Shown here piece after piece: positions 11,307-27,663 of a DNA stretch of 40,189 nucleotides. Below the pieces are notes generated by a model. The model was not told where the DNA came from and did no database searches. It was given only the letters and a program-made list of their open reading frames with translations. The position numbers and the translations under genes were made by a program. This stretch comes from Candidatus Lindowbacteria bacterium RIFCSPLOWO2_12_FULL_62_27. Its GTDB lineage: Bacteria > Lindowbacteria > 2-12-FULL-62-27. The stretch's first letter is position 1. The number at the start of each line of letters is the position of its first letter. The stretch is taken from contig MFPR01000038.1 of NCBI GenBank assembly GCA_001784175.1, forward strand, positions 1-40,189, in the 5' to 3' direction.

Positions 11307-12453
11307 TCATCAGTCTATGCCGTTTCATTCTGAACCGCAGCGTGTCCCGCCGGATGCCCAGTATTCTCGCCGCCTCCGATTGGTTTCCCTCCGCCAGCTT
11401 CAGCGCCGCCTTGATCCGGTCCTTCTCGAATCGCGCCACCTGACGGTCCAGGTGCTTCAGGTCCGCCCGCGTCAGGGGGTCACGTCCGTCACCCGAATCC
11501 TCGGCCGGCGTCGGAGACGCCGGCACTTGGGGCGCCGGAGGCGCTGACCCGGCCGGCGGCGCGGGCGCCGCGGGCGCGCCGGGCAAAACGGCAGGGGCGG
11601 AAGGAGCCGGGGACTGGAGGAGGACCGGGGGTTCCTCCTGTATTTTTGCAGTCCCCCGGGGGATATAAATTTCAGGGTCCGCGGTCGGAAGGCGCTCGAC
11701 GCCGGTGATGACTTCCAGCGGCATTTCCTCTGGCCGGATCCGGCCCTCGCTTCGCAGGATCATCACGCGCTCGATGGTGTTCCGAAGCTCCCGGACGTTG
11801 CCGGGCCAGGGGTAGTTCAGCAGAATCTGCTGCGTCTCCTCCGTCACGCCCTCCACCCGCTTGGCCATCTCCCGGTTGAAATGCTCGATGTAGTGCGCCG
11901 CCAGACTCACAACATCCTCCGGACGGCGGCGAAGCGGCGGAATTTCGATCGGGAACACACTGATCCGGTAGAACAAGTCCTCGCGGAACTTCTTGTCCTC
12001 CACCAGCTTCTTCAAGTCCTGGTGCGTTGAGGCGATCAGACGCACGTCCACCTCGATCTCGGCCTCGCCCCCCACCCGCCGGAATCGCCTCTCCTGAATT
12101 ACCCTCAGAAACTTCGCCTGCAAGCCCAAATCCAGCTCCGCCACCTCGTCCAGAAAAAGCGTTCCCCGATGCGCCTGCTCAAAAAGTCCCCGGTGCCGGC
12201 GCTGCGCGCCCGTGAAGGCGCCCGGCTCATAGCCGAACAGCTCCACTTCCAGAAGCGACCCCGGAAAGGCGGCGCAGTTGACGGCCACAAACGGACTCCT
12301 GCGCCGCCCGCTCTGCTCGTGGATCAGCCGCGCCGCCACCTCCTTGCCGCTCCCCGACTCCCCCGTGACCAAAACGGTCGAATCGGTCGGCGCCACCTGC
12401 CGTATCTTCGACTGGACTGCCTTCATGGCGGGACTGGCAAAAATGTATTTCAT
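11302..12453 (-). CDS. Sigma-54-dependent transcriptional activator (AAA+ plus Fis-type HTH, no receiver domain)
   Basis: The 383-residue protein begins directly with the AAA+ domain. It has Walker A GESGSGKE (31-38), the sigma-54 contact loop GAFTGA (78-83), Walker B GTLFLDE (97-103), and the WPGNVRELRN signature of NtrC-type activators. The last about 45 residues form a Fis-type helix-turn-helix (NQSEAARILGIRRDTLRFRMKRH). Known members drive open-complex formation by sigma-54 RNA polymerase with ATP. There is no N-terminal sensor, so control must come through its amount or a partner. A Pro/Ala-rich linker (about 250-330) contains the 46-bp double-hairpin element in frame. It lies upstream of the giant gene on the same strand, and a candidate promoter precedes it. 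Confidence 0.93.
   Translation of the reverse strand: MKYIFASPAMKAVQSKIRQVAPTDSTVLVTGESGSGKEVAARLIHEQSGRRRSPFVAVNCAAFPGSLLEVELFGYEPGAFTGAQRRHRGLFEQAHRGTLFLDEVAELDLGLQAKFLRVIQERRFRRVGGEAEIEVDVRLIASTHQDLKKLVEDKKFREDLFYRISVFPIEIPPLRRRPEDVVSLAAHYIEHFNREMAKRVEGVTEETQQILLNYPWPGNVRELRNTIERVMILRSEGRIRPEEMPLEVITGVERLPTADPEIYIPRGTAKIQEEPPVLLQSPAPSAPAVLPGAPAAPAPPAGSAPPAPQVPASPTPAEDSGDGRDPLTRADLKHLDRQVARFEKDRIKAALKLAEGNQSEAARILGIRRDTLRFRMKRHRLMK
11503..11548 (-). repeat. 46-bp double-hairpin element, copy A (in the sigma-54 activator linker)
   Basis: On the minus strand it reads GTCAGCGCCTCCGGCGCC, then CCAAGT, then GCCGGCGTCTCCGACGCC and GGCC. It contains one short hairpin (GCGCC-TCC-GGCGC) and one perfect 9-bp hairpin (GCCGGCGTC-TCC-GACGCCGGC). 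It is identical over 46 nt to copy C at 26161-26206. Here it is translated as SAPPAPQVPASPTPA. Confidence 0.9.
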
Positions 12454-12497
12454 GCGTAATCCGCCGCGTCACAACGTGAGAATTTTTTCACAGTCCA

Positions 12498-12526
12498 TTT
12501 ATACCACGCCGGCCCGACGGAATCAA
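12498..12526 (-). promoter_or_regulatory. Candidate sigma-70 promoter of the sigma-54 activator gene
   Basis: The minus strand carries TTGATT (12526-12521), a 17-bp spacer and TATAAA (12503-12498). Transcription would begin near 12490, about 37 nt before ATG 12453. The spacing is ideal and both hexamers are close to consensus. Confidence 0.5.
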
Positions 12527-12530
12527 ATCC

Positions 12531-12542
12531 GCCCACGTGGGC
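12531..12542. promoter_or_regulatory. 12-bp perfect palindrome upstream of the phospholipase D-like gene
   Basis: GCCCACGTGGGC is a perfect palindrome six bases before ATG 12549 and just upstream of the divergent activator promoter. It could be an operator, but a chance GC-rich palindrome is also possible. Confidence 0.3.
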
Positions 12543-12548
12543 TTGCAT

Positions 12549-13643
12549 ATGCGCGTGAAAAAATCTACCCTCGACCGCGTTCCCATGCGTGACAACGTTC
12601 TATGGATCGCTCTGTCTTTCTGCGCCCTCTTCGCCGCACTGTCCCGGCCGGCCGCGGCCGGGTCAGCGCCTCCGGCGCCGGCCGACTCCGCCGTGGCCGT
12701 TCTGAACCGGGAGTATCTGCCGGCGGTGCTTGACATGATCGGCGACGCCCGGCGGAGCGTCCGGATCATCCAGTACGAGTATGTGTCGTATGGTGCCGTC
12801 CGGGAAATCGAAAAGGCGATTCTGGCCGCCGCCCGCAGAGGCGTGTCCGTCCGGATGCTCGTCGACGACTCGGTCCGCGCCAGCCGGAAAAACGTTGAGT
12901 GGCTGGCCAAAAAAGGCATCGACGTCAAACTGGACGAGACGCGCGAGTACCGGGAGCCCGGCGACAGGACAACGCATGCCAAGATGATTCTGGTCGACCA
13001 TCAACGCGTGATGGTCGGGTCGACCAATTTCAGCGACAAGTCGATCTCCGACAATAATGAGGCCAATGTGCGGCTCGACCATCCGGCAGCGGCGAAGGCG
13101 GCGGGCGCCTACTTCGACGAGCTGTGGAACGATGCATCGAAAGAGCCGGCCGTTTCGCCGTTTCGATCGGCGGACGTCGACCTGATATTCAACCGGCAGT
13201 ACTTGCCGGCCGTCACGCAACTCTTTCAAACCGCGAAACGGCGGGTATACGTTGTTCTCTACGGCGCCAATGTCGGCCGCCCAGGGTCATCGGTCCGGGA
13301 ATTGATCGACGCGCTGGCGAGTGCCGTGCGGCGGGACGTGGATGTGAGAGTGATTCTGGACAAATCCGGCGGATCTTTCGCCGAAAAGACGCTGAAGTTC
13401 AGTCAGGAGGCGGCCGGCGCGATGGAGAAGGCCGGAGTCGCCGTGAAATTCGATTCCGAAGAGGTGATCACCCACGCCAAGGTGCTGGTGGTGGACGACG
13501 CGGTCGTGGTGGGCGGAACCAACTGGGGATACGGGCCATTGCATGAGTACAATGACATCAACGTGATCGTCCGCCGGCCGGATGTCGTCGGGCGTTTCGC
13601 GGAACGGTTTCTGGCGATGTGGAAGGGAGATCAGCGGTTTTAA
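12549..13643 (+). CDS. Secreted phospholipase D-like protein with two HKD motifs
   Basis: The protein has 364 residues from ATG 12549, or 352 from ATG 12585, which places a signal peptide (MRDNVLWIALSFCALFAALS) at the very N terminus; neither start has a clear ribosome binding site. Two HxKxxxxD motifs are present, THAKMILVDHQ (His about 143) and THAKVLVVDDA (His about 309), each followed by GSTN or GGTN. This is the usual arrangement of phospholipase D superfamily enzymes, in which both His form one active site for phosphodiester transfer or hydrolysis. The substrate (phospholipid or nucleic acid) cannot be told. A shortened copy of the 46-bp element encodes the Ala/Pro stretch after the signal peptide. 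The gene is convergent with the GYF_2-like gene, with only 7 nt between the stop codons. Confidence 0.88.
   Translation: MRVKKSTLDRVPMRDNVLWIALSFCALFAALSRPAAAGSAPPAPADSAVAVLNREYLPAVLDMIGDARRSVRIIQYEYVSYGAVREIEKAILAAARRGVSVRMLVDDSVRASRKNVEWLAKKGIDVKLDETREYREPGDRTTHAKMILVDHQRVMVGSTNFSDKSISDNNEANVRLDHPAAAKAAGAYFDELWNDASKEPAVSPFRSADVDLIFNRQYLPAVTQLFQTAKRRVYVVLYGANVGRPGSSVRELIDALASAVRRDVDVRVILDKSGGSFAEKTLKFSQEAAGAMEKAGVAVKFDSEEVITHAKVLVVDDAVVVGGTNWGYGPLHEYNDINVIVRRPDVVGRFAERFLAMWKGDQRF
12662..12683 (+). repeat. Double-hairpin element, copy D with 24-nt internal deletion
   Basis: The 22 bases GTCAGCGCCTCCGGCGCC plus GGCC equal the full 46-nt element minus exactly 24 nt, the CCAAGT spacer and most of the second hairpin. 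The loss keeps the reading frame. It is translated as SAPPAPA, the same phase as copy A. Confidence 0.75.
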
Positions 13644-13650
13644 CGTTCGC

Positions 13651-14193
13651 TCAGAAGGGTTTCTTGATGAGCCCCCGCCGAAGCAATTCCTCTTTCATGA
13701 TCTTTCGCTCGCGCCGCGCGTATTGCTTGTAATTCTCGCCATGTTCCTTCAATAGTTCCTGGTCTGACATCTCCCGGATGACCTTCATGAATCCCTCCGG
13801 GCTGGGCAGGTCCACCGGCGGGATGGCCGATGGATGGGGAGGTTCCACGAGTTTGGTCCTGCTCACCGGCTCCCACTCGTCCCAGTCCGTATGTTTCACC
13901 ATATCCTCGCCGCTCACCTCGCCGGATTGGATCATCTCCGCAAGCGCGCCCCTCGCAAACGGCCCGAGGATGGCCCCCGAACCCTCCAGCCGCACCATCC
14001 AGCCGACGCTCGGCGGAAGCTCCACGGGAACGCCACTCCACAAAAAGGAGAGCTCCGGGAAATCCTGGGCGCCACGCCATTCCTCCGTGCCCTCCCGGCA
14101 CAACCTCGTCTCCGGCCGGATGAACTCGGACAACTGCTCCGGAAGATACGGGCCGTAGAGTTTGTCGTCCACCCACGCGTACCATCGGTTCAT
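13651..14193 (-). CDS. Tandem GYF_2-like (DUF4339-type) domain protein
   Basis: The 180-residue soluble protein has two related segments. Residues 3-52 read RWYAWVDDKLYGPYLPEQL and end in EEWRGAQDFPEL. Residues about 64-113 read GWMVRLEGSGAILGPFARG and end in WDEWEPVS. The pattern of an aromatic start, GP, an amphipathic helix and a closing W fits GYF_2-type modules, which are thought to bind peptides. The remainder is charged and helical (YKQYARRERKIMKEELLRRG). No signal peptide or membrane segment is seen. It lies 37 nt downstream of the transferase gene and is probably co-transcribed with it. Its function is unknown. Confidence 0.7.
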   Translation of the reverse strand: MNRWYAWVDDKLYGPYLPEQLSEFIRPETRLCREGTEEWRGAQDFPELSFLWSGVPVELPPSVGWMVRLEGSGAILGPFARGALAEMIQSGEVSGEDMVKHTDWDEWEPVSRTKLVEPPHPSAIPPVDLPSPEGFMKVIREMSDQELLKEHGENYKQYARRERKIMKEELLRRGLIKKPF

Positions 14194-14230
14194 CTTTGTT
14201 TCGCCAGCCTACGCCGAAATGCCGGCGCTG

Positions 14231-14911
14231 TCAACAAAATCCCGCGCGCCGCAGGTCCTTCAAGGTGTCGATGTCATACCATGGATCCAGGATCGCCGCG
14301 CGAATCCGCCGCCGGATCGCGCGTTCGAGGGTCATTCGAAACACGGTGGGACCGCCCCAGCGGATCCGATAAAACAGGTCCCGGCCGGCCTTCCGAAATC
14401 CTGCGCGCGTCAGCCCGATCAGATAATATCCGCCGTCCTCCGCGGGCCCCAGCACGAGGTCGTGGTCGCGGAGCCGCGCCGCCGCTCGCCGGATGAATCC
14501 CGCCGGCAACGTGGGACTATCGCTGCCGATCAGAATCACGGACGGCGATTCGGCCAGCATCTCAGCGAACGCCCAACGCATCCGCGCGCCCAGCGTCCGG
14601 CCCCTCTGGCGGGACATGACGCCACGAATCCCAAACCGCAACCGCAGCCGCCGCTCCGCGCCGGCCGGATCAGCGCCTCCGGCGCCCCAAGTGCCGGCGT
14701 CTCCGACGCCGGCCGGCGTGTAAAACACGCGCCACGCCAGCCCCGCGCGCCCGGCCAGCCGCAGCGTTGCGTGGACGAACCCCTCATACAGATCGCACGC
14801 GCGCCCCTCGCCGACCTCCCGGGCCAGCCGCCGCTTGACCCGGCCGGGCACGGGCTCCCGCACGAACACGCCAAGCGCGACGCCCCCCACGCCCGCGGGC
14901 GCGCGGGGCAT
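14231..14911 (-). CDS. TIGR04282/DUF2064-type glycosyltransferase-like protein
   Basis: The 226-residue protein matches the family often found near radical-SAM/selenodomain genes. It has an N-terminal LGVFVREPVPGRVKRRLA, a central LIGSDSPTLPAGF, and DLVLGPAEDGGYYLIGL, corresponding to the nucleotide-sugar transferase fold with its acidic metal site. I chose ATG 14911; upstream in-frame ATG codons lie inside a CACGAAC repeat. The 46-bp element is inserted antisense in a surface loop (about residues 66-81, giving GVGDAGTWGAGGADP). The substrate is unknown. The gene follows a repeat-filled 282-bp gap after uvrC and precedes the GYF_2-like gene. Confidence 0.82.
   Translation of the reverse strand: MPRAPAGVGGVALGVFVREPVPGRVKRRLAREVGEGRACDLYEGFVHATLRLAGRAGLAWRVFYTPAGVGDAGTWGAGGADPAGAERRLRLRFGIRGVMSRQRGRTLGARMRWAFAEMLAESPSVILIGSDSPTLPAGFIRRAAARLRDHDLVLGPAEDGGYYLIGLTRAGFRKAGRDLFYRIRWGGPTVFRMTLERAIRRRIRAAILDPWYDIDTLKDLRRAGFC
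14669..14714 (+). repeat. 46-bp double-hairpin element, copy B (in the transferase gene)
   Basis: It is identical to copies A and C except for its first base (A instead of G). It lies on the strand opposite to the gene, so the gene reads its complement, which gives GVGDAGTWGAGGAD. The left flank CCGGCCGG also resembles the flanks of copies A and D. Confidence 0.88.
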
Positions 14912-14929
14912 TACAAGACGGCGGGAAAA

Positions 14930-14984
14930 CATTGGCCACGAACGAACACGAACGAACACGAACTTGCACGAACAAAAACGTTTT
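14930..14984. repeat. CACGAACGAA short tandem repeat, copy 1
   Basis: After ATTGGCCACGAACG the unit ACACGAACGA repeats with small variations. The opening matches the second locus at 23143-23190 (GGGAAA-C-CATTGGCCACGAACG). It lies just upstream of the transferase start and fills part of the 14912-15193 gap. Confidence 0.75.
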
Positions 14985-15021
14985 CCCAGGGGGATGAAAT
15001 ATCAGAAGACATCGTCTGATC

Positions 15022-15121
15022 CCCTCTCCCCCGAAGGGGGAGAGGGTCAGGGTGAGGGGGTTCTTCGGCGCCAGAATGGCCACCCTCACCCCGGCCCTCT
15101 CCCGCCAAAGGCGGGAGAGGG
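15022..15121. repeat. Bipartite CCCTCTCCC palindromic element (intergenic copy)
   Basis: Two strong hairpins, CCCTCTCCCCC-GAA-GGGGGAGAGGG (15022-15046) and CCCTCTCCCGCC-AAA-GGCGGGAGAGGG (15095-15121), are separated by GGGTGAGGG and CACCCTCACC, which are themselves complementary. The whole 100-bp unit can fold into a cruciform-like structure. The same architecture occurs inside a gene at 30169-30274. Confidence 0.85.
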
Positions 15122-15156
15122 GGGAAATCCAGGAGACGGCGCATCAAATTTCCAGT

Positions 15157-15196
15157 CTGTGCGCTTCAGCGCACAGTGATTGAACACCGCTGTTCA
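15157..15196 (-). terminator. Two hairpins at the 3' end of uvrC, possible weak terminator
   Basis: An 8-bp stem (CTGTGCGC, loop of 4, GCGCACAG; 15157-15176) follows a 6-bp stem that overlaps the stop codon (TGAACA-CCGC-TGTTCA; 15181-15196). No good U-run follows on the minus strand, so this could be a processing or stabilising structure rather than a terminator. Confidence 0.35.
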
Positions 15197-16963
15197 CCGA
15201 ATTTCTCGAGGAGCGGGTCCGGGCGCGGGCCGGCCCGGCTCGGCCCGGGCCAGCATTTTTCGGCAGGCCCGGGTGGAGAGCAGGCGGCGGCTGAAGCGGT
15301 GGGCCTCGTCGCGGATCCGCTGGAGGAGCTGAAGCGCGGGGTCCGTTTTTCGGAGCCGAACGACCCCCCCATCCTCGAGGACGATCAGCTCCTCCTCCTT
15401 GGCCAAGCCTACGATTTCGAATCGGAGATTTTGGATTTTCGATTTTAGATTTTGGATTGTGGAGCCAGAGTTCCTGAGGGGTGAAGACGGCGGAGAAGCA
15501 GGAGCACACGGCAGCGCCAGGGCTTTGCGGGCGGCGCGGACGTGGCCCAGGCCGCCGTCGACGAGGATCAAGTCGGGCGCCGCCGGCGATTCCTCCTCGA
15601 GGGCGCGCCGGATCGAGCGCCGGACCAGTTCCTCCATCGCCGCGTAGTCGTCCTTGATTTCCAGGGTCTGCAGGCCGAAGGAGCGGTACAGCGATTTGTC
15701 CGGCTTGCCGCGCCGGAACACCACCCGGGCGCCGGTGACGATGGCCGGGCCGAGGTTGGCGACGTCATAGCCGTGAATGCACTCGGGCCGGCGCGCGAGC
15801 TGCAATTTTTCACGCACGCGGTCCAGTACCTCCTCCGCCTGCGGGTCGGCGCGCTCGTAGAGTCTGGCCCGCGCGTTTTTCTCCGCCAGATCCAGAAGAT
15901 CATGCGCGTATCCCCGGCCCGGGGACCACAGCCGCACGGGATGGCCGGACCGTTCGGCCAGCCACCGCTTCAGGCTCGACATGTCCGGCGGTTCGGCCTT
16001 GATCGCGATTTCCCGGGGCACGCCGCCCGGCAGTTTGTAGTATTCCATCAGAAACTGGCCCAGCGCCTCCGGCTCGGATCCGCCGCCGGCCGGAAAGACA
16101 AATCCGGAGCTTCCGGTGATGTGACCCTTTCGGACTTTGAACACGCAAAAACAGATTCGGGCGCGGTTCGGATCGGACACGAACGACACGGCGTCCATGT
16201 CGCGGGCGCGCGCGGTCGCCGCGCGCTGTTTCTCCGACAGTTCCCGGAGGGCCGCGATCCGGTCGCGGCAGAGCGCCGCGAGCTCGTAGGATTTCGACGC
16301 CGAGGCGGCGCGCATGCGCGATTGTTGGTCCCTCAGAAGCGCCTCGTAGTCTCCGCGCAAAAAGCGTTCCGCCTGCGCGGCCTGCACGGCATACTCGGCC
16401 TTGGACACCAAACACTCGCACGGGCCGTCACAGCGCTTGATGAAATACTGGAGGCACAGGGGCGGACTTTTCCTTCCTTCCACGAGCTTTCGCTTGCACG
16501 TGCGGATCTTGAAGAACCGGTGGACCATGTCGAGGATCCGGCGCACGTTGAATCCCGACACGTACGGCCCGAAATACCGGGCGCCGCGCGCCGTGTCGTC
16601 CTCGATCCGGCGCGTGAGAACGATCCGCGGGAAGTCGCCCGCCGTGATTTTGATGTAGGGATAGCGCTTGTCGTCGCGAAAGACGATATTGAACGGCGGC
16701 CGGTGTTCCTTGATGAGCGTGTACTCGAGCATGAGGGCCTCGTACTCGGACGCGCAGATCAGCGTTTCGAGCCGCGCGGCCCGGGCCAGGAAGTAGCGTG
16801 TCTTGTCCGGCGCCTGCGCGGAAAAATAATTGGCCAGCCGGTCGCGCAACCGGGCGGCCTTGCCCACATACAGGACCCGGCCCGCCGCGTCCTTGAACCA
16901 ATAGACGCCGGGCAGACGGGGCGCCGACCGGGCGATGTCCTGAAGAGGCGTGGTGGGTTTGAT
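15194..16963 (-). CDS. uvrC: UvrC excinuclease subunit, C-terminally truncated, no standard start codon
   Basis: UvrC makes both incisions in nucleotide excision repair. The GIY-YIG nuclease (LPGVYWFKDAAGRVLYVGKA), the UVR domain (about 195-250) and the RNase H-like C-terminal nuclease (YDVANLGP, LILVDGGLGH, IRDEAHRF) are recognisable, with both Asp and the His of the second active site. From the last in-frame stop (the gcvPB TAA) to the GIY motif there is no ATG, GTG or TTG; the first codon after that stop is ATC (16963), used here. The first standard start, GTG 16867, would delete the GIY half. The helix-hairpin-helix domain after DEAHRF is missing, replaced by a short Ala/Pro/Arg tail. About 30 extra residues containing a repeat lie before the VGLAKEEE strand. 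It may be active but atypical, or decaying. Confidence 0.8.
   Translation of the reverse strand: MKPTTPLQDIARSAPRLPGVYWFKDAAGRVLYVGKAARLRDRLANYFSAQAPDKTRYFLARAARLETLICASEYEALMLEYTLIKEHRPPFNIVFRDDKRYPYIKITAGDFPRIVLTRRIEDDTARGARYFGPYVSGFNVRRILDMVHRFFKIRTCKRKLVEGRKSPPLCLQYFIKRCDGPCECLVSKAEYAVQAAQAERFLRGDYEALLRDQQSRMRAASASKSYELAALCRDRIAALRELSEKQRAATARARDMDAVSFVSDPNRARICFCVFKVRKGHITGSSGFVFPAGGGSEPEALGQFLMEYYKLPGGVPREIAIKAEPPDMSSLKRWLAERSGHPVRLWSPGRGYAHDLLDLAEKNARARLYERADPQAEEVLDRVREKLQLARRPECIHGYDVANLGPAIVTGARVVFRRGKPDKSLYRSFGLQTLEIKDDYAAMEELVRRSIRRALEEESPAAPDLILVDGGLGHVRAARKALALPCAPASPPSSPLRNSGSTIQNLKSKIQNLRFEIVGLAKEEELIVLEDGGVVRLRKTDPALQLLQRIRDEAHRFSRRLLSTRACRKMLARAEPGRPAPGPAPREIR
15427..15458. 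repeat. GATTTTGGATTTTC short repeat inside uvrC
   Basis: GATTTTGGATTTTCGATTTT and its continuation form a tandem of 7-8 base units. On the coding strand it gives IQNLKSKIQNLR, a peptide typical of this repeat type in other bacteria. It sits in a loop of UvrC between the DGG strand region and VGLAKEEE and is AT-rich against the surrounding GC-rich gene. Confidence 0.75.
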
Positions 16964-18358
16964 TTATTTCAATATCGGATGACGGGCGGCGCGGACATCG
17001 TCCACGCGCCGGACCGGCGTGCGAATCGGCGCGTCATGGAGGCGCTGCGGGTTGGTTTCGGCCTCGCGCAGGATGGTCTGCATCAGTTCCACGAAACGGT
17101 CGAGGGTTTCGCGGCGCTCGGTCTCCGTCGGCTCGATCATCAGCGCCTCCCGCACCAGCAGGGGGAAATAGACGGTGGGGGCATAGAGTCCCTCGTCGAG
17201 AATGCGTTTGGCGACGTCCATGGCCGACACGCCGAATTTGTCCTTGAGCGCGATCGCCGAGGCGACGAACTCGTGCATGCACCGGCCGTGGCCGTAGGGG
17301 ATGGGGAACATCGGCCGGAGTTTTTCCTGAAGATAATTGGCGTTCAGGACGGCGCCGAGGCTCACGCGCCGAATGCCTTCATCCCCGAGGAGACGCAAGT
17401 AGACCCAGGCTTTCAGGAGATTCAAAAAATTCCCGAACGCGCCGTGATACCGCCCGATCGACCGGCGGTCCGCCTCGGCCCATCCCCATGCGCCCTCCTC
17501 CCGTTTCAAAAAGGGGCCCGGCAAATACGGCGCCAAATGCGACTTGACCCCGATCGGGCCCGCGCCCGGGCCGCCGCCACCGTGCGGGATGGAGAAGGTC
17601 TTGTGAAGATTGACGTGGACCATGTCGAAGCCCATGTCGCCGGGCCGGACGCGTCCGAGGATCGCATTCAAGTTGGCGCCGTCGTAGTAGAGGAGGCCGC
17701 CGGCGTCATGCACCGCACGGGCGACATCCTCAATACATGTTTCGAACAGGCCGAGCGTATTGGGATTCGTCAACATGAGAACGGCCGTGCGGTTGGAGAC
17801 TTTCTGCCGCAGGTCCGCGAGATCCACGCGGCCGGTCGCATCCATCTTCACGACGACGACGGTGAGCCCCGACATCGCGGCGGAGGCCGGGTTGGTGCCG
17901 TGCGCGTTTTCCGGAACGAGGACTTCCGTGCGGTCCGTGTCGCCGCGCAGCCGGAAATACTGCCGGGCGGTTTTGAGCGCGCAAAGTTCCCCGTGCGCGC
18001 CGGCGGCCGGATAGAGACAGACGGCCTCCATGCCGGTCACCGCCGCGAGGTCCTGCTGAAGTTCCCCGAGCGCCTGCAGAACGCCTTGGACCTCGGAGTC
18101 CGGCTGCCAGGGATGGGCCTGGAGGAATCCGGGTTCGGACGCGACCGCCTCTCCAGCCTTCGGGCTGTATTTCATCGTGCAGGACCCGAGCGGGTAAAAA
18201 CTCGAATCGACACAGAGATTCTTGCGGGAGAGATTGACATGATGACGGACCAGGTCATTTTCGGGCAGCGCGTCCAACGCGAGCGGCGCGGCCCGGCGCG
18301 CATGGGCGGGCAAGGCGGGGATGCCGGAAGAAACAGCGGTATCAAACAGCCGGCTCAT
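16964..18358 (-). CDS. gcvPB: Glycine dehydrogenase (decarboxylating) subunit 2
   Basis: The 464-residue protein is the C-terminal half of the split P-protein, which decarboxylates glycine with pyridoxal phosphate and passes the aminomethyl group to GcvH. Visible motifs are SSFYPLGSCTMKYSP near the N terminus, ENAHGTNPASAAM, and HVNLHKTFSIPHGGGGPG, where Lys253 is the expected cofactor-binding lysine. The gene overlaps gcvPA by 4 nt (ATGA) and ends in TAA directly followed, in the same reading frame, by the uvrC coding sequence. Confidence 0.96.
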   Translation of the reverse strand: MSRLFDTAVSSGIPALPAHARRAAPLALDALPENDLVRHHVNLSRKNLCVDSSFYPLGSCTMKYSPKAGEAVASEPGFLQAHPWQPDSEVQGVLQALGELQQDLAAVTGMEAVCLYPAAGAHGELCALKTARQYFRLRGDTDRTEVLVPENAHGTNPASAAMSGLTVVVVKMDATGRVDLADLRQKVSNRTAVLMLTNPNTLGLFETCIEDVARAVHDAGGLLYYDGANLNAILGRVRPGDMGFDMVHVNLHKTFSIPHGGGGPGAGPIGVKSHLAPYLPGPFLKREEGAWGWAEADRRSIGRYHGAFGNFLNLLKAWVYLRLLGDEGIRRVSLGAVLNANYLQEKLRPMFPIPYGHGRCMHEFVASAIALKDKFGVSAMDVAKRILDEGLYAPTVYFPLLVREALMIEPTETERRETLDRFVELMQTILREAETNPQRLHDAPIRTPVRRVDDVRAARHPILK

Positions 18359-19707: not shown

Positions 19708-19732
19708 CGCGGTCAGCCGCTCCGGGCCTGCC

Positions 19733-20119: not shown

Positions 20120-20135
20120 GGATGCATCCTCCCTT

Positions 20136-21242
20136 TCACGCCGGATGCCCTTTCACCCGGCCTTTGACGAATCTCCGTGATACCTGCCGCACCGGAATTT
20201 CCTTCCCGCGGCCTTTCACGGCCAGCGCCGCGTCCGGCGGAACGGCGACATCGACCGATCCGAATCCGATGCTGCGGCCCAGGGTCTTTGAGAATACGCC
20301 GCTCGTCACCTGCCCGACCTCGCGGCCGTCCAGGACGATCACGTGGCCGTGGCGGATCAGCGCCGATGGATCGGTCCCCGCGTCCAATCCTGTGAGCCGG
20401 CGGCGAGGGGCGCGGGTCTTGAGCGCCTCGGCGCCCCAGTACCCGCCGGCGGGCGACACGGCGAATTTCAGTCCGCACTCGAATGGACTGACGGTCTCAT
20501 CCATGTCCGAGCCATAGAGACTGTAGCCGGCTTCGACGCGCAATACGTCGCGCGCGCCCAATCCACAGGGAGCGACACTACCAGCTTTTAAAAGCCATTG
20601 CCACATTTTTTCGGCCTGGGCGTTCGGCGCCACCAGTTCAAATCCGTCCTCGCCCGTGTAGCCGGTCCGGGAAATCCACACGGGTCCGAGGCCTGTCCAT
20701 TCCATGTCGGCGCCGCCGAAATACGGGATCGCGGCCACGGTCGAATACGGCGATCCCGTAGCCGGCGGCCGAACGACGGCCGACAGGATCGACTCGGCCT
20801 TCGGCCCCTGCACCGCGATCATGACGGTGGCGTCGGACCGGTCGCGGGCGCGGCCTCCGCGCGCCTCGATCCATCGGAGGATTTTGTCGCGGTTGGAGGC
20901 GTTGACCACCAATAGAAAATCTCCGGAGACTTTCCGGTACAGGATCACATCATCGAGAATTCCGCCCGACTCGTTGAGGACCAGCCCGTATCGGCCGAGC
21001 GCGGGCCGGATGTCTGAAACGCGGCAGGTCAGCAGGCGCGAGAGAAACGGCTCGGCCTCCGCCGGAAACTCCAGACGGCCCATGTGGGAGACGTCGAACA
21101 TGCCGCAGGCGGTTCGAACCGCGGCGGTCTCGTCATAGATTCCGCGATAGAAAATCGGCATGTCGTATCCGGCGAATCCCGCACGACGGGCCTGCAGGGC
21201 GGCGTGCTGGTCGAAGAGGGGGGTGTGGCGCAGGTCGTCCAT
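20136..21242 (-). CDS. gcvT: Glycine cleavage system T protein (aminomethyltransferase)
   Basis: The 368-residue protein transfers the methylene group from aminomethyl-GcvH to tetrahydrofolate and releases ammonia. The sequence has TPLFDQHAALQARRAGFAGYDMP, MFDVSHMGR, NESGGILDDVI with the catalytic-region Asp, and YTGEDGFEL. Its ATG overlaps the stop of the upstream fusion gene as TGATG, so translation is probably coupled. Confidence 0.96.
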   Translation of the reverse strand: MDDLRHTPLFDQHAALQARRAGFAGYDMPIFYRGIYDETAAVRTACGMFDVSHMGRLEFPAEAEPFLSRLLTCRVSDIRPALGRYGLVLNESGGILDDVILYRKVSGDFLLVVNASNRDKILRWIEARGGRARDRSDATVMIAVQGPKAESILSAVVRPPATGSPYSTVAAIPYFGGADMEWTGLGPVWISRTGYTGEDGFELVAPNAQAEKMWQWLLKAGSVAPCGLGARDVLRVEAGYSLYGSDMDETVSPFECGLKFAVSPAGGYWGAEALKTRAPRRRLTGLDAGTDPSALIRHGHVIVLDGREVGQVTSGVFSKTLGRSIGFGSVDVAVPPDAALAVKGRGKEIPVRQVSRRFVKGRVKGHPA

Positions 21243-22315
21243 CAGGTGAAACTACCGAGGAGCCGCCGGAGGGCCTTGCGAACGAGAATACGGATTTCTT
21301 CGCGGCACCGGCGATACGTTTCGAGATCGCCGCCGATGGGATCGTGCACGTCGGGGCCGGGCTTGCGCGTGGCGTACTCCCTCAGCGTGAAGATCCGGTC
21401 GCGCCGCGCGGGGAAGAGCGCAAGGAGCAGCATGCGCTGGCTGTGTTCCATCGTGAGGATCAAATCGGCCCGGGCGACGTCTTCGGCCATGAGGGGCGCG
21501 CTCAGATGGGCTTGGAGGCTGACCTGGATTTCGTCGCAGACGGCGCTCGCCCCCTCGCTGGCCGTCCCACCGGCGCGCGCCATGAGACCCCGGGAGAACA
21601 CCTGGGCCATGTCCGCGAGCGGCTCGAGTTCGCCGCGCGTGATCGCCTCCGCCATCGGACTTCGGCACGTATTTCCGGCGCAGACGTAAAGGACGCGAAG
21701 CGGATCCGGAAGAACGTCGGGCGGGATCGCGCCCTGACGAATCACGTGCACTTCGTCCCCCTCGACGGCGACCACGGTCGAGGCGACCTTGCAGGAATGC
21801 CGGTCGTCCCGGATGGCCACCTCGACGCCTTCGAATATTCTGGGGTCGATGTCATCAAAGCGCCCTACGGCGCCCCGGCCGGACCGGTTGGCGCTGGTGG
21901 AAACGATGGGACCGATCTGGTTGAGAAGGTCGCGCAGTTGCCGGTGGGCCGGGATCCGCACGGCGATGGTGCCGTCGTCGGCGCAGAGGCTCCGGCTGAG
22001 TTCTTTTTTCGCCGGCAGCGCGACGGTGAGGGCGCCGGGCCAGAAGCGCGCCATGAGGATGCGTGCGCGCTGGGGGATTTCGGATGCGAGTTTTTCGATT
22101 TGCATGCGGGACCCGGCAAGGATCGGAAATTTCTTGTCCGGGCTTCGGCCTTTGAGGTCCATCATCTCCTTGACGATTTCGTCCCGGATCATCCCGCCGA
22201 TGCCGTAGACGGTGTCGGTCGGAAACAGGATCAGCTTCTTTTTGCGGATGGCGGAAACGATCGGTTTCGGACCCGGCGGATCATCGGCTTCCCAGTCCAA
22301 TATCTGCGGCGACAT
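21242..22315 (-). CDS. Fusion of threonylcarbamoyl-AMP synthase (TsaC/Sua5 family) and low-molecular-weight protein tyrosine phosphatase
   Basis: Residues about 15-200 form a YrdC/Sua5 domain (LILFPTDTVYGIGG, KGRSPDKKFPIL, ARFWPGALTVALP, STSANRSG), which makes the threonylcarbamoyl-AMP used for t6A37 of tRNA. Residues about 205-357 form a low-molecular-weight phosphatase with the CX5R loop VCAGNTCRSPMAEA and the acid loop DVHDPIGG. The total of 357 residues is the sum of two full domains with a short linker. It starts six bases after the rsmI stop and overlaps gcvT. Which phosphoprotein or small substrate the phosphatase acts on is unknown. A Sua5-specific C-terminal domain is absent. Confidence 0.92.
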   Translation of the reverse strand: MSPQILDWEADDPPGPKPIVSAIRKKKLILFPTDTVYGIGGMIRDEIVKEMMDLKGRSPDKKFPILAGSRMQIEKLASEIPQRARILMARFWPGALTVALPAKKELSRSLCADDGTIAVRIPAHRQLRDLLNQIGPIVSTSANRSGRGAVGRFDDIDPRIFEGVEVAIRDDRHSCKVASTVVAVEGDEVHVIRQGAIPPDVLPDPLRVLYVCAGNTCRSPMAEAITRGELEPLADMAQVFSRGLMARAGGTASEGASAVCDEIQVSLQAHLSAPLMAEDVARADLILTMEHSQRMLLLALFPARRDRIFTLREYATRKPGPDVHDPIGGDLETYRRCREEIRILVRKALRRLLGSFT

Positions 22316-22321
22316 GCGCGA

Positions 22322-23032
22322 TCAGGCCCGATCCGCCGTGTACTTGGAGACATGCCGCCGGGGCGACGGCGGGGCCGGCTCCGCGACGACGACGACCTCG
22401 CCCTTGACGGTCCGCGCGGCGAACGCGCCCGCCGCGTCGGCCGCGGTGCCGGACCAGACTTCCTCAAATTGTTTCGTCAGCTCCCGGCCGATGACCAAGC
22501 GCGCGCCGGGCGCGGCTTCCGAAACTTGCGCGATCGTTCGCGCGAGCCGGCCCGGATGTTCGAAGAACACGGCGGCGGACCCGCTGTGAAGAATCTCGAG
22601 GAGGTCCAGCGCCGGATTTTTCCTGGACAGAAAGCCGACGAACGTCACGCGCCCGGCAAAGACGCCGGCGATGGACAAGGCCGCCGTGAGGGCGGAGGGG
22701 CCGGGAATGGGGACGACCCGCACGGCGGATTCGAGGCAGCGGCGGACCAGAAGCGCGCCGGGATCGGACACGGCGGGCGTGCCGGATTCGGTCACGAGCG
22801 CCGCCTCCAGCCCGGCCTGCAATCTCGGCAGAAGCTGTTCGACGCGCGCCGATTCGTTTCCTTGATACAGGGAATACACGGGCTTCGGCGGCAGGCTGTG
22901 CCGCAGAGACAGCTTCCGGAACGTCCGCGTGTCCTCGGCGATGACGGCCTCGACCTCTTTCAGGATTTTCAGGGCGCGCAGAGTGATATCTTCGAGATTC
23001 CCGACAGGCGTCGCCACAACGTACAGCGCCAG
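22322..23032 (-). CDS. rsmI: 16S rRNA (cytidine-2'-O)-methyltransferase RsmI, probable CTG start
   Basis: The 236-residue protein matches the tetrapyrrole-methylase-fold RsmI that methylates C1402 of 16S rRNA. It has LYVVATPVGNLEDITLRA at the N terminus, EDTRTFRKL, VTESGTPAVSDPG, IPGPSALTAALSIAG and FVGFLSRK. The family normally starts within a few residues of LYVVATP. Here no ATG, GTG or TTG fits. A strong ribosome binding site AAGGGGG (23046-23040) lies 7 nt before CTG 23032, which I chose. ATT 23038 is an alternative. A longer frame back to ATG 23164 would translate repeat DNA and is unlikely. Two further minus-strand genes follow closely. Confidence 0.85.
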   Translation of the reverse strand: MALYVVATPVGNLEDITLRALKILKEVEAVIAEDTRTFRKLSLRHSLPPKPVYSLYQGNESARVEQLLPRLQAGLEAALVTESGTPAVSDPGALLVRRCLESAVRVVPIPGPSALTAALSIAGVFAGRVTFVGFLSRKNPALDLLEILHSGSAAVFFEHPGRLARTIAQVSEAAPGARLVIGRELTKQFEEVWSGTAADAAGAFAARTVKGEVVVVAEPAPPSPRRHVSKYTADRA

Positions 23033-23039
23033 ACAAATT

Positions 23040-23046
23040 CCCCCTT
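23040..23046 (-). promoter_or_regulatory. rsmI: Ribosome binding site that decides the rsmI start
   Basis: AAGGGGG is the best Shine-Dalgarno match in the region. The 7-nt spacer AATTTGT places initiation at CTG 23032, just before the conserved ALYVVATP. Confidence 0.55.
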
Positions 23047-23151
23047 GCGATCGTTTACCTGCTCCATGTTCCTGATACCTGCGCCGGGTGAGAGCGTCAA
23101 GGGAGAAATTCGTCAGAGAGAAATGGGGCCGGTAAACAGGGAAACCATTGG

Positions 23152-23253
23152 CCACGAACGACACGAACGATCACGAACAGACACGAATTAAACATTCTTC
23201 TCATGTAAAAATGTTCGTGTTCGTTCGTGTTCCAGGTTCGTGTTCGTTCGTGG
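23152..23253. repeat. CACGAACGA inverted repeat pair, copy 2
   Basis: The left arm (23152-23190; GCCACGAACGACACGAACGA and on) and the right arm (23210-23253; AATGTTCGTGTTCGTTCGTG and on) are imperfect inverted copies around an AT-rich loop with AACATT and AATGTT at its ends. It lies between the divergent rsmI and PEGA genes. The left end matches the locus at 14930. Confidence 0.75.
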
Positions 23254-23275
23254 AGGATGTTTATCATTGACCTGA

Positions 23276-23304
23276 TTGACGGCGCATTTTTCCGATGCTA
23301 ATGA
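23276..23304 (+). promoter_or_regulatory. Candidate sigma-70 promoter of the PEGA-RsbU cluster
   Basis: TTGACG (23276-23281), a 17-bp spacer and TAATGA (23299-23304) fit a sigma-70 promoter. Transcription would start around 23311, which favours ATG 23316 with a very short leader over ATG 23295. If ATG 23295 is used, this promoter cannot be right. Confidence 0.35.
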
Positions 23305-23315
23305 CTGGATTCAAG

Positions 23316-23681
23316 ATGAAGCGTTTCTCAGTCTGGTTCATGCTCATGGTCGCGTTCGCATCGGTCGGATGCACGGCCCGACGGGGGGCGTCCAAAGAGG
23401 AGCAGTTTATCCCCCTTGAGCGCGGAATGGCTGTGATCCAGTCCACGCCGCCGGACGCCTCCGTTTACATCAACGGCGCGCTGGTCGGCAAAACCCCGCA
23501 GAAAAAACTATTCTTAATTCCTGGGACTTACGACCTTGAAATACGAAAAGAGGGGTTTGGCCCCTGGAAGGAAAAAATATTGATTCTTGAAAATACCGTC
23601 CACGAAATCCAGGCCAAACTGCCGGGGTTTAGCCCCACCGACACGCCCGTGCTCAAACGGCCCGCCGAGAGGCTGTATTAA
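23316..23681 (+). CDS. Small PEGA-domain lipoprotein
   Basis: The 121-residue protein starts with a lipoprotein-type signal (MKRFSVWFMLMVAFASVGC), with Cys19 as the likely lipidated residue; the lipobox SVGC is imperfect. A PEGA domain follows (AVIQSTPPDASVYINGALVG, KTPQKKLFLIPGTYDLEIRKEGF), a beta-rich module common in surface proteins and membrane-bound regulators. An in-frame ATG at 23295 would add seven residues before the signal. It is 33 nt upstream of the phosphatase gene across an AT-rich spacer. A role in envelope sensing is inferred from the neighbours only. Confidence 0.8.
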   Translation: MKRFSVWFMLMVAFASVGCTARRGASKEEQFIPLERGMAVIQSTPPDASVYINGALVGKTPQKKLFLIPGTYDLEIRKEGFGPWKEKILILENTVHEIQAKLPGFSPTDTPVLKRPAERLY

Positions 23682-23714
23682 TATACTGTATATATATAAG
23701 GGGAACCCAGCCGG

Positions 23715-25265
23715 ATGCAGGTGAGTTTGAGGGCCAAGTTTGCGGGCGTGGTGCTCGGGCTGATCCTGGTGCTGATCTGCGCCATCTGGGCGCTGATGAT
23801 GCGCCAGCAGGCGGAGATGGAGAAGCGCATTTCGGAGCATCAGCGTGGGGTCATGCTGGCGGAACTCAAGAAACGGACCAGCAGCATTTTTGCGTTTCTG
23901 ACGGCCAACAGCGAGGCCCTGTCGATCGAGGACTACCTGACGGTGGACGCATTTGTCCGGGAGATGTCGCGGTCCTCCGACATCCGGTACATTCACATCG
24001 TCGTCGATGGCCGGCTCGTCGTCCCGATGGTGAAAAATCCTCCGATGTACGAGCTTCCCCGAGGCGTCGCGCCGGCGGGGACCGACGTGCGTTTTGACGA
24101 AACGACCGGGCCGGACGGCGAGCCGCTGGTGCTGGTCAGCGGGCCGATCGTGGACAAGACCATCCGCCTGACGGTGGGGTCGGCGTACGTGGCCGTGTCG
24201 AAGCAGCCCATTCTGGAGGCGATCGAGCAGGCCGCGCTGGAAGTCAGCCGCGTCGCGCAGTCGGTCCGGAGGCGGGTGACGCTGATCACGCTGATTTTCG
24301 TCGCGCTCGGCGTCGCCTGCTCGGTCGTGCTGGTCAGCATGATCGTGCGGCCCATCCGGGAACTGGCGGCGGGCGCGCGGGTGATCGGGAGCGGCAATCT
24401 GGACCATCAGGTGGAAGTGCGGTCGAGGGACGAGGTGGGGGACCTCGCGCGGACCTTCAATGAGATGACGCAGGACCTCAAGGCGGCGCAGCGGAGATTG
24501 ATCGAGACGGAAAAATTCGACCAGGAGCTGAAAATCGCGACGGAGATCCAGCAGGCGCTTTTGCCCAAAAGTCTTCCGAAGGTCCTCGGCCTGGATCTTG
24601 GAGCGTATTACAAGTCGGCGAAGGACGTCGGCGGCGACTATTACGATTACATCCCGGTCCAGAGGGACAGCCGCGGAAAAATCGCGGTCGTGGTCGCGGA
24701 CGTGGCCGGCAAGGGCCTTCCGGGGGCGGTGGTCATGTCGATGACGCGGAGCATTCTGCGGTCGCAGGTGACGCTGGCGCTGTCGACGGCCGACACGCTG
24801 CGCCGGACGAACGCGGTGCTGCAGCCGGACATCAAGGCGGGGATTTTCGTCAGCATGTTCTACGGCCTGGTGGACAGCGGCACCGGCGAGACCGAATTCA
24901 GCAGCGCCGGGCACAACACGACGCTGATTTACCGCGCAAAGACCCGAGAGGTGGAGAAGATCGACTGCGGCGGGATGGCGCTGGGCGTGGTGAGTCCCGA
25001 GCGGTTCGACGGGATGATCGAGACGAAGAAGACGGTCTTGTTGACCGGAGACATTTTGATCCAGTATACTGACGGGGTCGATGAGGCGATGAATCCGGAC
25101 CACGAGCAATTCGGGATGGACCGGCTGTACGAGGCGATCCGGAAGTGCGGAACGCGCGGCGCGCAGGAGATGCTGGAAGAAATCCAGGAGCGGATCACCA
25201 CCTTCGTGTCCGGCAACCCGCCTTCGGATGACATCACGATGGTCGCCGTGAAACGGGTGGCCTGA
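23715..25265 (+). CDS. Membrane RsbU/SpoIIE-type PP2C serine phosphatase with HAMP domain
   Basis: The 516-residue protein has a transmembrane helix (about 9-29), an extracytoplasmic sensor region (about 30-188), a second helix (about 190-212), a HAMP linker (IVRPIRELAAGARVIGSG, then EVGDLARTFNEMT) and a SpoIIE/RsbU phosphatase domain (about 275-515). Metal-binding motifs are DVGGDYYDY (about 303), VADVAGKG (about 327) and PSDDITMV (about 503). Known relatives dephosphorylate an anti-anti-sigma (STAS) protein. No STAS gene lies in the window. A GGGGA ribosome binding site is 10 nt upstream. The kinase gene follows after 14 nt. Confidence 0.93.
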   Translation: MQVSLRAKFAGVVLGLILVLICAIWALMMRQQAEMEKRISEHQRGVMLAELKKRTSSIFAFLTANSEALSIEDYLTVDAFVREMSRSSDIRYIHIVVDGRLVVPMVKNPPMYELPRGVAPAGTDVRFDETTGPDGEPLVLVSGPIVDKTIRLTVGSAYVAVSKQPILEAIEQAALEVSRVAQSVRRRVTLITLIFVALGVACSVVLVSMIVRPIRELAAGARVIGSGNLDHQVEVRSRDEVGDLARTFNEMTQDLKAAQRRLIETEKFDQELKIATEIQQALLPKSLPKVLGLDLGAYYKSAKDVGGDYYDYIPVQRDSRGKIAVVVADVAGKGLPGAVVMSMTRSILRSQVTLALSTADTLRRTNAVLQPDIKAGIFVSMFYGLVDSGTGETEFSSAGHNTTLIYRAKTREVEKIDCGGMALGVVSPERFDGMIETKKTVLLTGDILIQYTDGVDEAMNPDHEQFGMDRLYEAIRKCGTRGAQEMLEEIQERITTFVSGNPPSDDITMVAVKRVA

Positions 25266-25279
25266 GGAGCGACGCGGGC

Positions 25280-25750
25280 ATGGCGAAAACACAGGAACGG
25301 AAAAAATCGGCGGGACCCAGACTTAGGAAGACGGTATTGCGGCTGGCCGCGCAGCCGGATGCGCTCAAGGTTGTCCGGAACACCATCCTGAAGGAAGCCG
25401 GAGCGCTGCGGATCCATCCTGAAGAACTCTACTCCATGGTGCTTGCGGTGGACGAGGCCTGCGCCAACGTCATCCGGCACGCCTACAAGGACGGCCCGGC
25501 GAGGCCGATGATCATCGAGATTGAAATTACCAGCCGCCAGATGAGCATCGTGATCCGCGATTCGGGTCAGGCGTTCGATTTCGGCGAGTATCCGCGCATT
25601 CCGGTCCGGGAGGCCATCGCACAGCGGGCCGAGCGGGGATACGGGATTCAGATCATCAAGTCCGTGGTGGACCGCTGGGAACACACGCGCACAAAATCCG
25701 GCGAGAACCGGCTCCGGTTGATCAAGTACTTCCATCCGGCCGGATCCTGA
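25280..25750 (+). CDS. RsbW-like anti-sigma factor serine kinase (GHKL ATPase)
   Basis: The 156-residue single-domain ATPase has an N-box VDEACANVIRHAY (57-69), a G1 box DSGQAFDF and a G2 box RGYGIQIIKSVVD. This size and order fit RsbW/SpoIIAB-type kinases, which phosphorylate STAS proteins and hold a sigma factor. A GAGGAG ribosome binding site precedes the ATG. With the RsbU-type gene before it, it should form the phosphatase/kinase pair of a partner-switching module; the STAS partner and target must be encoded elsewhere. Confidence 0.92.
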   Translation: MAKTQERKKSAGPRLRKTVLRLAAQPDALKVVRNTILKEAGALRIHPEELYSMVLAVDEACANVIRHAYKDGPARPMIIEIEITSRQMSIVIRDSGQAFDFGEYPRIPVREAIAQRAERGYGIQIIKSVVDRWEHTRTKSGENRLRLIKYFHPAGS

Positions 25751-25758
25751 GCGGCCGG

Positions 25759-27663
25759 ATGCGAGACCTGCGTGTGCGTGGGCTGCCGGCCGCCATCCTT
25801 GCGATCCTGACGCTGGCCGGCGCCGACCCCGGCCGCGCGGACGACGTGCGGCCGCAGATTGCGGCGAGCGACCGGATTCGGATTCTGCTACGGTCGGAGG
25901 GCCTGGCCGCCCCCGAGGAGGACCATCTCGCGAAACTCCTGGAGGAAGCGCTGGACCGGCTTGACCTCGTCGACGTCAGCCGCGAAATCCGGCGCGGCCC
26001 CGTTTCGTCGGAGGAACTGCGCAAACGCGCGAAGGCCGAGGCCGTCCACGCGTTTTTGATCGTCGACGCCGGACTCGCGGGCGCCGCGGATGCGCGGCGC
26101 CTGACGTTGGACGGAAAATTAATTTTCCCCGAAATTTACGATCCGGTCTGGACGGCGCGGGTCAGCGCCTCCGGCGCCCCAAGTGCCGGCGTCTCCGACG
26201 CCGGCCGGATCCGTACAGGCGGCGCGACCGATACCTCGAAGCCGGCGCGGAATCCCGTCACGACGGAACAGATGCTCGAAGACGGCGCGCGGAGCCTGAC
26301 GGGAGAGTTCAGCCGCGACTGGATGACGCAGGTCGCAAAAAACAAGAGTGAGCAGGCGATGGTAGGACTGCGCGAAAAGCGCAGGGAGTTGGAGAGCCTG
26401 GAGCCCGCGGAGGCCGCGCGCGAGGCGGCACAGCTCGCGCGGGGATTCGAGCGGAGCGCCGAAAAATCTTTTGCATCAGGCGCGCACACCGAAGCGATCG
26501 AATACGCCCGGATTGCGCAGGGCCACTATGAACGGGCCATCGGCACCGCGCGCGGGGAGAGAGAAAAGCAAACGTACCGCCGGGAGCGGCTGAATCTCCT
26601 GCTCGAAGCCATCCGGAACCGGATCGACAGCGTTCCGGTCGAGCTATTGTCCGAGGATCAGCGCCGGGACCTGATCGATCTTCAGGCGGCGCACCGCGCC
26701 GTTCGTTCCATGCAGTCGCCCGACATCGAGCTGGCCATGGCAAAGGTGGAATCGATCGACACACGACTCGCCGCACTTGCGCGGGCCGCGCGCCAAACGT
26801 TTCAGGCCAGGGTCCGGGAGATTGAAATTGCGCTCGTGTCGCTCCGGGAATGGGACGCGCCGCGGATGGATGGAAAGACCTATCAGGAGATCCTCAAGGG
26901 GTTTGACGAGGCGCTCGCCGGCTACGAGCGCGGCGCCTGGCAGCAGGCGCTGATCCACCTGCGGCAGGCGGAACGGGGTGCGCAGATGACGCTCGATTTT
27001 CTGACGCGCCATGCCCGCGAACACGCCGAAGAGGAATACCTTCAAACGGTGGAACGCATGGGGCGGCTCATCAAAAAACTTTATACGGTCGCCGGCGACC
27101 GCAAAGATCTTCTTGAAACGGCGGACGCGGCCTTCAAGAGATTTCAGACCGTCAAGGGCGAGTACACGCGCGAGAAGGCGACGCGAGCGGCGCGGCAGGC
27201 GACCGATCTGTTCCGGGAGTGCGTGCAACTTTTGCAGCAGTTTCAGGAAAAACAGACCGAGCGCGCGGCGGAACTGAAGCGGCGGAAGGAGCAGATGGGA
27301 CAGAGCCTGTCGGGACTGGGTCAGCGGGGCGCGAAGCTGATGTTTCCGGACCGGTGGGTCGATCTCCAAGGGCTCTGGCGCGCCGTCGAGCCGCTGGAGG
27401 GGGAGCGTCTCATCGAACAGGATTCGACCCTCCTGCATCTCAACCGGCTCATCGATCAGATGGACCAGAGCATTTCCTCCATGATCGAACAGCCGATGAG
27501 CGAGTTTTCGCGGGCCATCGTAAAGCGCCGGGAAAACGGGAAGCCGTGGGAGGCGCTGGAGCGCAAGCGCCGCCTGGCGGAGGTCTACCTCCGGGAGGGC
27601 CTCGTCCCGGACGCGCTGGTAATCTTCAAGGAGTTGGAGACGGAGATCGCGGCGGGGCAGTGA
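25759..27663 (+). CDS. Secreted coiled-coil protein of unknown function
   Basis: The 634-residue protein has a signal peptide (LPAAILAILTLAGADPGRA). Next comes a short alpha/beta region (DRIRILLRSEGLAAPEEDH, then AEAVHAFLIVDAG) resembling the start of curli/CsgG-like or TolB-like secretory proteins, without a firm match. The rest, from about 180, is a long series of charged amphipathic helices and coiled coils (EKRRELESLEPAEAAREAA, QLLQQFQEKQTERAAELKRR) with TPR-like pieces at the end. A copy of the 46-bp element is translated in frame as VSASGAPSAGVSDAG at residues 135-150. It follows the kinase gene by 8 nt and converges with the propeller gene, 6 nt apart. I do not recognise a family. Confidence 0.8.
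   Translation: MRDLRVRGLPAAILAILTLAGADPGRADDVRPQIAASDRIRILLRSEGLAAPEEDHLAKLLEEALDRLDLVDVSREIRRGPVSSEELRKRAKAEAVHAFLIVDAGLAGAADARRLTLDGKLIFPEIYDPVWTARVSASGAPSAGVSDAGRIRTGGATDTSKPARNPVTTEQMLEDGARSLTGEFSRDWMTQVAKNKSEQAMVGLREKRRELESLEPAEAAREAAQLARGFERSAEKSFASGAHTEAIEYARIAQGHYERAIGTARGEREKQTYRRERLNLLLEAIRNRIDSVPVELLSEDQRRDLIDLQAAHRAVRSMQSPDIELAMAKVESIDTRLAALARAARQTFQARVREIEIALVSLREWDAPRMDGKTYQEILKGFDEALAGYERGAWQQALIHLRQAERGAQMTLDFLTRHAREHAEEEYLQTVERMGRLIKKLYTVAGDRKDLLETADAAFKRFQTVKGEYTREKATRAARQATDLFRECVQLLQQFQEKQTERAAELKRRKEQMGQSLSGLGQRGAKLMFPDRWVDLQGLWRAVEPLEGERLIEQDSTLLHLNRLIDQMDQSISSMIEQPMSEFSRAIVKRRENGKPWEALERKRRLAEVYLREGLVPDALVIFKELETEIAAGQ
26161..26206 (+). repeat. 46-bp double-hairpin element, copy C (in the coiled-coil protein gene)
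   Basis: It is identical over 46 nt to copy A at 11503-11548 and sense to the gene, but read one phase away from copies A and D, giving VSASGAPSAGVSDAG. It sits between the alpha/beta N-terminal region and the coiled coil. Confidence 0.9.

Follow-up and report, generated by a model that had tools for sequence, protein, structure and literature searches.

A 48-nt double-hairpin repeat lying in frame in unrelated protein genes of an uncultured Lindowbacteria family

What is a nearly identical double-hairpin sequence doing inside four unrelated genes of one contig? The question is raised by MFPR01000038.1 of Candidatus Lindowbacteria bacterium RIFCSPLOWO2_12_FULL_62_27, a stretch of 40,189 nt that we analysed over its whole length and call the window. 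It is contig C38 of a genome of 4.39 Mb in 44 contigs (G000), which we compared with the two other genomes of its family (G001 and G002). A first-pass annotation of the window had described a 46-bp element in frame in four genes and in three reading phases. Our analysis indicates that this sequence is very probably a non-autonomous mobile unit of 48 nt, composed of two direct hairpin modules, that is carried by proteins as 16-codon in-frame inserts.

Structure and distribution of the 48-nt unit

In an alignment of 59 copies the left end, CGGRTCA, hardly varies, which sets the unit length at 48 nt. The 46-bp element described earlier is real, with its length corrected by placing the start at the CGG before GTCAG. 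The consensus reads CGGRTCA-GCGCC-TCC-GGCGC-CCCAAGT-GCCGGCGTC-TCC-GACGCCGGC and consists of two like-oriented modules, each a leader followed by a hairpin, the first formed by CGGRTCA and a 5-bp stem and the second by CCCAAGT and a 9-bp stem, with TCC as the loop of both hairpins on the same strand. Compensatory (double) changes occur in 8 of the 14 stem pairs, and 99.1% of cells are paired relative to 86.2% in shuffles, with the main measures being reached by 0 of 500 shuffles. Structures that are slid along the alignment fail the covariation test. The single-stranded DNA folds at -19.3 kcal/mol (z about -4.2 to -4.3). Subfamilies with the stems GCCGC/GCGGC, GCCTC/GAGGC and GCGTC/GACGC keep the loops and leaders, and the GCCGC/GCGGC stem predominates in G002. 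What is conserved in this element is the hairpins, not their letters.

The element is also far more abundant than the four genes to which it had first been assigned. A strict core pattern (29 nt, exact) has 38 matches in the 4.4-Mb genome and none when the pattern is reversed. When stems are left free and up to three mismatches are allowed in linkers and loops, there are 71 copies in G000, 34 in G002 and one in G001, again with reversed controls at 0. An initial search of 57 other genomes gave zero copies. A covariance model run on 192 genomes scores nearly all copies in the three family genomes at 65-80 bits, and in the 189 others it returns five single matches of at most 29 bits, which is about chance level. 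An exact scan of ~85,000 species found, besides the genome itself, only the metagenome-assembled genome (MAG) NC_groundwater_1274_Ag_S-0.2um_61_68, and the independently assembled MAG JACQOF01 has its own element subfamily. These results show that the element has spread within this bacterial family. An Rfam search of the window returned zero matches. A phage or plasmid origin was considered and rejected, as phages and plasmids give weak partial matches only and a scan of viral contigs gave 0 elements.

In-frame insertion into unrelated protein genes

The evidence for insertion comes from an empty-site test in which the flanking peptides of 29 and then 28 hosts, stripped of the insert, served as queries against the three genomes and the orthologues were aligned. 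Among the 31 hosts with usable orthologues, 22 have a net insertion of exactly 16 codons, and these 16-codon insertions span five phases (+0, +1, +2, -1 and -2). Filled and empty states are reciprocal, with sites filled in G000 and empty in G002 as well as the reverse, and an insertion at the same place is absent from every orthologue compared. For example, the AhpC/TSA orthologues at G002 C141:47370 and G000 C33:18726 both have the element, but at different sites, and the site filled in one is empty in the other.

Comparison with Pfam, NCBIfam and PDB identifies a wide range of hosts, including TrmD, glutamate-tRNA ligase (GltX), LepA (at its N-terminus), PurQ, the carbamoyl-phosphate synthase small subunit, pseudaminic acid synthase, a xanthine-dehydrogenase-type FAD subunit, hexokinase, a PIN-domain protein, the AhpC/TSA protein, a CHASE histidine kinase and a GH116 enzyme. 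PDB alignments show TrmD, GltX and LepA to be otherwise intact, and in TrmD the insert lies directly N-terminal of the conserved CGRYEGID segment. Many copies lie in the interior of folded domains (TrmD, GltX, PIN). An automated rule places 58 of 91 units within genes, and a by-eye, unscored reading of the remaining units suggests an intragenic share of ~80%.

Identical element DNA is read in five phases and on both strands, which extends the three phases noted earlier. Specifically, insertions number 27 in phase +2, 13 in -2, 12 in +0, three each in -1 and +1, and none in -0. The peptides are of the ISASGAPSAGVSDAG type in +2, SAPPAPQVPASPTPA in +0 and AGVGDAGTWGAGGAD in -2; the +1 reading is Arg-rich, +1 and -1 are both rare, and the -0 reading, in which there is no insertion, contains a TGA. 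Note that GGCCGG, the commonest target core, is present in coding sequence in all six phases. Relative to the expectation from target sites the phase bias is significant (Monte Carlo p = 3e-5), also when the stop phase is left out (p = 0.003). Since the automated intragenic rule excludes the stop phase by construction, a second test was added that uses only the flanks and does not assume that the element is open, and in this test, too, none of 50 insertions falls in the stop phase (p = 7e-5). Phases in which the element would contain a stop or encode an Arg-rich peptide are therefore depleted. Because the stop phase is empty and the Arg-rich phases are depleted, the insert is most likely translated, as judged from sequence. 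Insertion itself would be blind to phase and to genes, with selection acting afterwards. Because its length of 48 nt is divisible by three and the element is open in five of its six readings, copies that land in surface loops, even those of essential enzymes, could persist as translated 16-residue linkers.

Target site and the copies in the window

Across the 59 copies the left host flank is CGGC in 75-80% and the right host flank is GG (86/73%). The fuller host preference is CGCCGGC on the left and (C)GG, then weakly RTC, on the right. The CGG sites that receive the element thus look like the junction between its own end and start (...CGCCGGC followed by CGGRTC...). Of 37 cases, 30 have the same base (A or G) at the element's R position as the host has after CGG (Fisher p = 2e-4), and runs of identity around the junction vary from 0 to 22 bp. 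This pattern fits a target that is chosen by matching the element's junction, as would be expected for a joined-end form. A search for target-site duplications, which the first-pass annotation had proposed, did not find a fixed one; such a duplication is rejected by the nearly invariant left end, the only partial match of the right flank and the varying identity runs. Nested copies are present at three G000 sites (C4:404377-404409 with C4:404325-404372, C33:71423-71507 and C4:477967-478051). There the nested copy is always located in the hairpin 2 loop of the other copy, after GTCN and before CCGACG or similar, which suggests either that hairpin loops are a hotspot or that a compound element was copied.

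The four copies of the window, whose places and host identities had been given correctly beforehand, illustrate these features. Copy A (11504..11551, minus strand) is read in frame +0 as AGSAPPAPQVPASPTPA in a sigma-54-dependent activator (11302..12453, minus strand; Pfam Sigma54_activat, AAA_lid_14 and HTH_8), where it occupies the linker from the AAA+ lid to the HTH_8 domain. Copy B (14666..14713, plus strand, R = A; hairpins at 14673..14685 and 14693..14713, both on the plus strand) is antisense to the gene of a protein that Pfam assigns to DUF2064 (14231..14959, minus strand) and is read as AGVGDAGTWGAGGADP; the G002 orthologue is exactly 16 codons shorter, with FYTP directly followed by AGS.... 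Copy C (26158..26205, plus strand) is read in frame +2 as RVSASGAPSAGVSDAG in a secreted protein without a Pfam match (25759..27663, plus strand), and its plus-strand hairpins are GCGCC-TCC-GGCGC at 26165..26177 and GCCGGCGTC-TCC-GACGCCGGC at 26185..26205. Copies A and C are the same over 46 nt and copy B is one base off. Finally, copy D (12659..12682, plus strand) is a 24-nt single-hairpin derivative, equal to the element minus 24 nt or 8 codons, that directly follows the signal peptide of a phospholipase D (PLD)-like protein (12537..13643, plus strand; Pfam PLDc_2 in two stretches). It arose with the loss of one repeat between the two similar hairpins. Other copies are reduced by 24 or 15 nt and likewise stay divisible by three in length. 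The proposal had been that all sites are domain borders or follow signal peptides. Copy D does follow a signal peptide and copy C does not, and many copies are inside folded domains.

The window also contains other repeats. A second dispersed palindromic repeat (CCCTCTCCCGCC...GGCGGGAGAGGG) is present at 15079-15125 and 30165-30211, the latter in frame at the N-terminus of the open reading frame 27670-30345 (LSPRRGERIEVRG...PSPLPSPAVGGRGG). A third short repeat of the GTTCGTGTTCGTTCGTG type lies near gene ends (14927-14953 and 23213-23262), and long tandem arrays of a ~297-nt (99-aa) unit, with units 60-80% identical, occur in large secreted-type proteins at 1-6000 and 36500-40183.

Mobilisation and relation to known palindromic elements

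All three genomes encode candidate mobilising enzymes, with Y1_Tnp (PF01797) genes numbering 8 in G000, 6 in G001 and 10 in G002 (24 total). Six proteins resembling the REP-associated tyrosine transposases (RAYTs) of repetitive extragenic palindromic (REP) sequences were examined, and all match the NCBIfam model REP_Tyr_transpos, one above its cut-off and five below. Shared flanking hairpin repeats were not found at the Y1 transposase genes of the three genomes. No larger autonomous element with the same ends was seen among the single-hairpin matches examined. A RAYT-like transposase acting in trans is possible. More generally, a single-strand transposase of the HUH/Y1 type may move the element in trans by way of its hairpins, probably through an excised joined-end form that would pair with a matching target, and we hold this mechanism as a tentative one. 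We consider it unlikely that all parts of a more specific proposal apply together, namely that the element moves as a joined-end 48-nt molecule, finds its targets by junction pairing and uses an enzyme type new to such elements. If that proposal were true, the 16-codon length and the five open readings would be an adaptation to life inside proteins, and the element would continually alter loops of essential enzymes in an uncultured lineage.

Several observations weigh against the view of the element as a translated, mobile 16-codon insert. Part of the covariation could be caused by hairpin-templated mutation or correction and not by selection. Nine of the 31 hosts have other net lengths, and in these the orthologues have diverged or the loop is variable. 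Insertion boundaries were defined at the protein level, from alignments and codon comparison. The codon model behind the automated intragenic count was trained on one window and is conservative, with many gene-end copies left unclassified. Finally, the element is found within 1.5 kb of a Y1_Tnp locus at 0 of 20 loci examined.

Would an already known process explain the same data? An ordinary REP, or a REP doublet of the REPIN type, mobilised by a genome-encoded RAYT would agree with the presence of PF01797 proteins in all three genomes and with hairpins that have conserved unpaired leaders and compensatory changes, which are REP-like features. We nonetheless regard it as somewhat doubtful, as described RAYT genes are always flanked by their own REPs in inverted orientation (PMC2817692), whereas the RAYT-like genes that the first-pass annotation had suggested looking for are present here with none of the examined Y1 loci flanked by the element. 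The element also lacks a GTAG/GGAG or CGTC head, and most of its classifiable copies lie within genes. Its hairpins are direct, whereas those of REPINs form inverted pairs (PMC3116915), and dimers in head-to-tail arrangement are rare (PMC3733652). Spread that needs no dedicated enzyme, with replication switching templates by microhomology at GC-rich hairpins, would account for target/junction identity of 0-22 bp without a fixed duplication, for slippage derivatives of 24 and 15 nt and for the failure to find a linked transposase. It is quite improbable when set against an exact 48-nt unit, a near-invariant CGGRTCA in 59 copies and the same net length in 22 hosts, as template switching should leave uneven ends and copy some donor flank along.

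The remaining two explanations deny either the translation or the reality of the insert. Translational bypassing, with precedents in phage T4 gene 60 and the Magnusiomyces capitatus mitochondrion (PMC5009743), or another removal or skipping of the 48 nt at the RNA level, would produce proteins without the 16 residues. The hairpins and flanking CGG...CGG repeats do look like take-off and landing sites, and insertions do hit conserved places in essential enzymes. We give bypassing very little weight, because the empty stop phase (0/50, p = 7e-5) and the depletion of Arg-rich phases are expected only with translation, and the net length is divisible by three; a bypassed element would tolerate stops. 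In a high-GC genome with low-complexity peptides one might suspect that Pro/Ala-rich linkers have converged by chance or codon bias, or that the assembly is at fault. This is refuted by controls and we assign it practically no credence: there are 38 exact 29-nt matches versus 0 in the reversed control, the identity is one of DNA that is read in five phases and on both strands, the orthologues are empty and do not hold the same peptide encoded by unrelated DNA, and the independently assembled JACQOF01 has its own subfamily.

How, then, does the mobile 48-nt unit relate to described systems? A miniature inverted-repeat transposable element of a DDE-type insertion sequence (IS) does not match, as the ends CGGRTCA and GCCGGC are not inverted repeats and duplication is not fixed. 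Elements derived from IS200/IS605 have hairpin-marked ends with loops on the same strand and insert beside a short motif without target duplication. The present element resembles such miniatures in its same-strand loops on end hairpins and its duplication-free insertion at a short motif, and differs in that an autonomous partner with the same ends was not found and the target match spans the junction instead of being a fixed left tetranucleotide. It shares with REPIN/RAYT systems a two-hairpin miniature design, compensatory evolution and RAYT-like genes in the genomes. In contrast to REPINs, which are inverted REP pairs, RAYT-adjacent and extragenic (PMC3116915, PMC2817692), it is direct, intragenic in 58/91 units and without RAYT linkage.

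Small hairpin repeats of the GTAG and CGTC REP classes are closer in one respect, as intragenic cases are described from, for example, Opitutus terrae, Thauera and R. conorii, some of them in frame, and CGTC REPs, too, have no transposase linked to them (PMC3733652). However, these REPs have an unpaired GTAG or CGTC head, are mostly intergenic and form mainly head-to-head dimers, whereas the leaders of the present element are CGGRTCA and CCCAAGT, its hairpins are arranged head to tail and most of the copies that could be classified lie in genes. Specifically, the unpaired GTAG/GGAG head required of a GTAG-type REP is absent. A CGTC-type REP would have an unpaired CGTC end, an 8-9 bp stem and a 4-5 nt loop; here the CGTC is part of stem 2 and the loops are of 3 nt.

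The nearest likeness is to the Rickettsia palindromic elements (RPEs), as the first-pass annotation had recognised. RPEs are short palindromic repeats of ~150 bp (RPE-4/6 being shorter), about half of them intragenic (PMC10969869), that interrupt unrelated protein genes in frame, metabolic genes among them, and apparently leave the proteins functional (PMC10969869, PMC3733652). The element shares with them in-frame insertion into unrelated protein genes (here 16 codons in 22/31 hosts) and the lack of a known transposase (PMC10969869, PMC3733652). It differs in its fixed 48 nt, its two direct TCC-triloop hairpins, its five phases and its lack of an unpaired CGTC end, as well as in an unrelated sequence from an unrelated uncultured lineage, with no Rickettsia match in the exact scan. 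The likeness was borne out by genome-wide copies, insert-free orthologues and defined boundaries. The class of in-frame intragenic REPs and RPEs is already described in PMC3733652 and PMC10969869, where this element family was not found; the element is thus a new family of frame-neutral, protein-coding palindromic elements of a kind already known. In-frame palindromic inserts have so far been seen mainly in Rickettsia, plus scattered intragenic REPs elsewhere. The present family adds a case that is independent and cleaner, as its unit is fixed, its empty orthologues are reciprocal, its hairpins are backed by covariation and its targets follow a rule. It makes testable which enzyme does the moving and how repeated loop insertions of 16 residues are tolerated by proteins, even by TrmD and tRNA synthetases. 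Its copies also form a natural survey of sites at which proteins permit insertions, and annotators should be aware that proteins of this lineage carry lineage-specific peptides.

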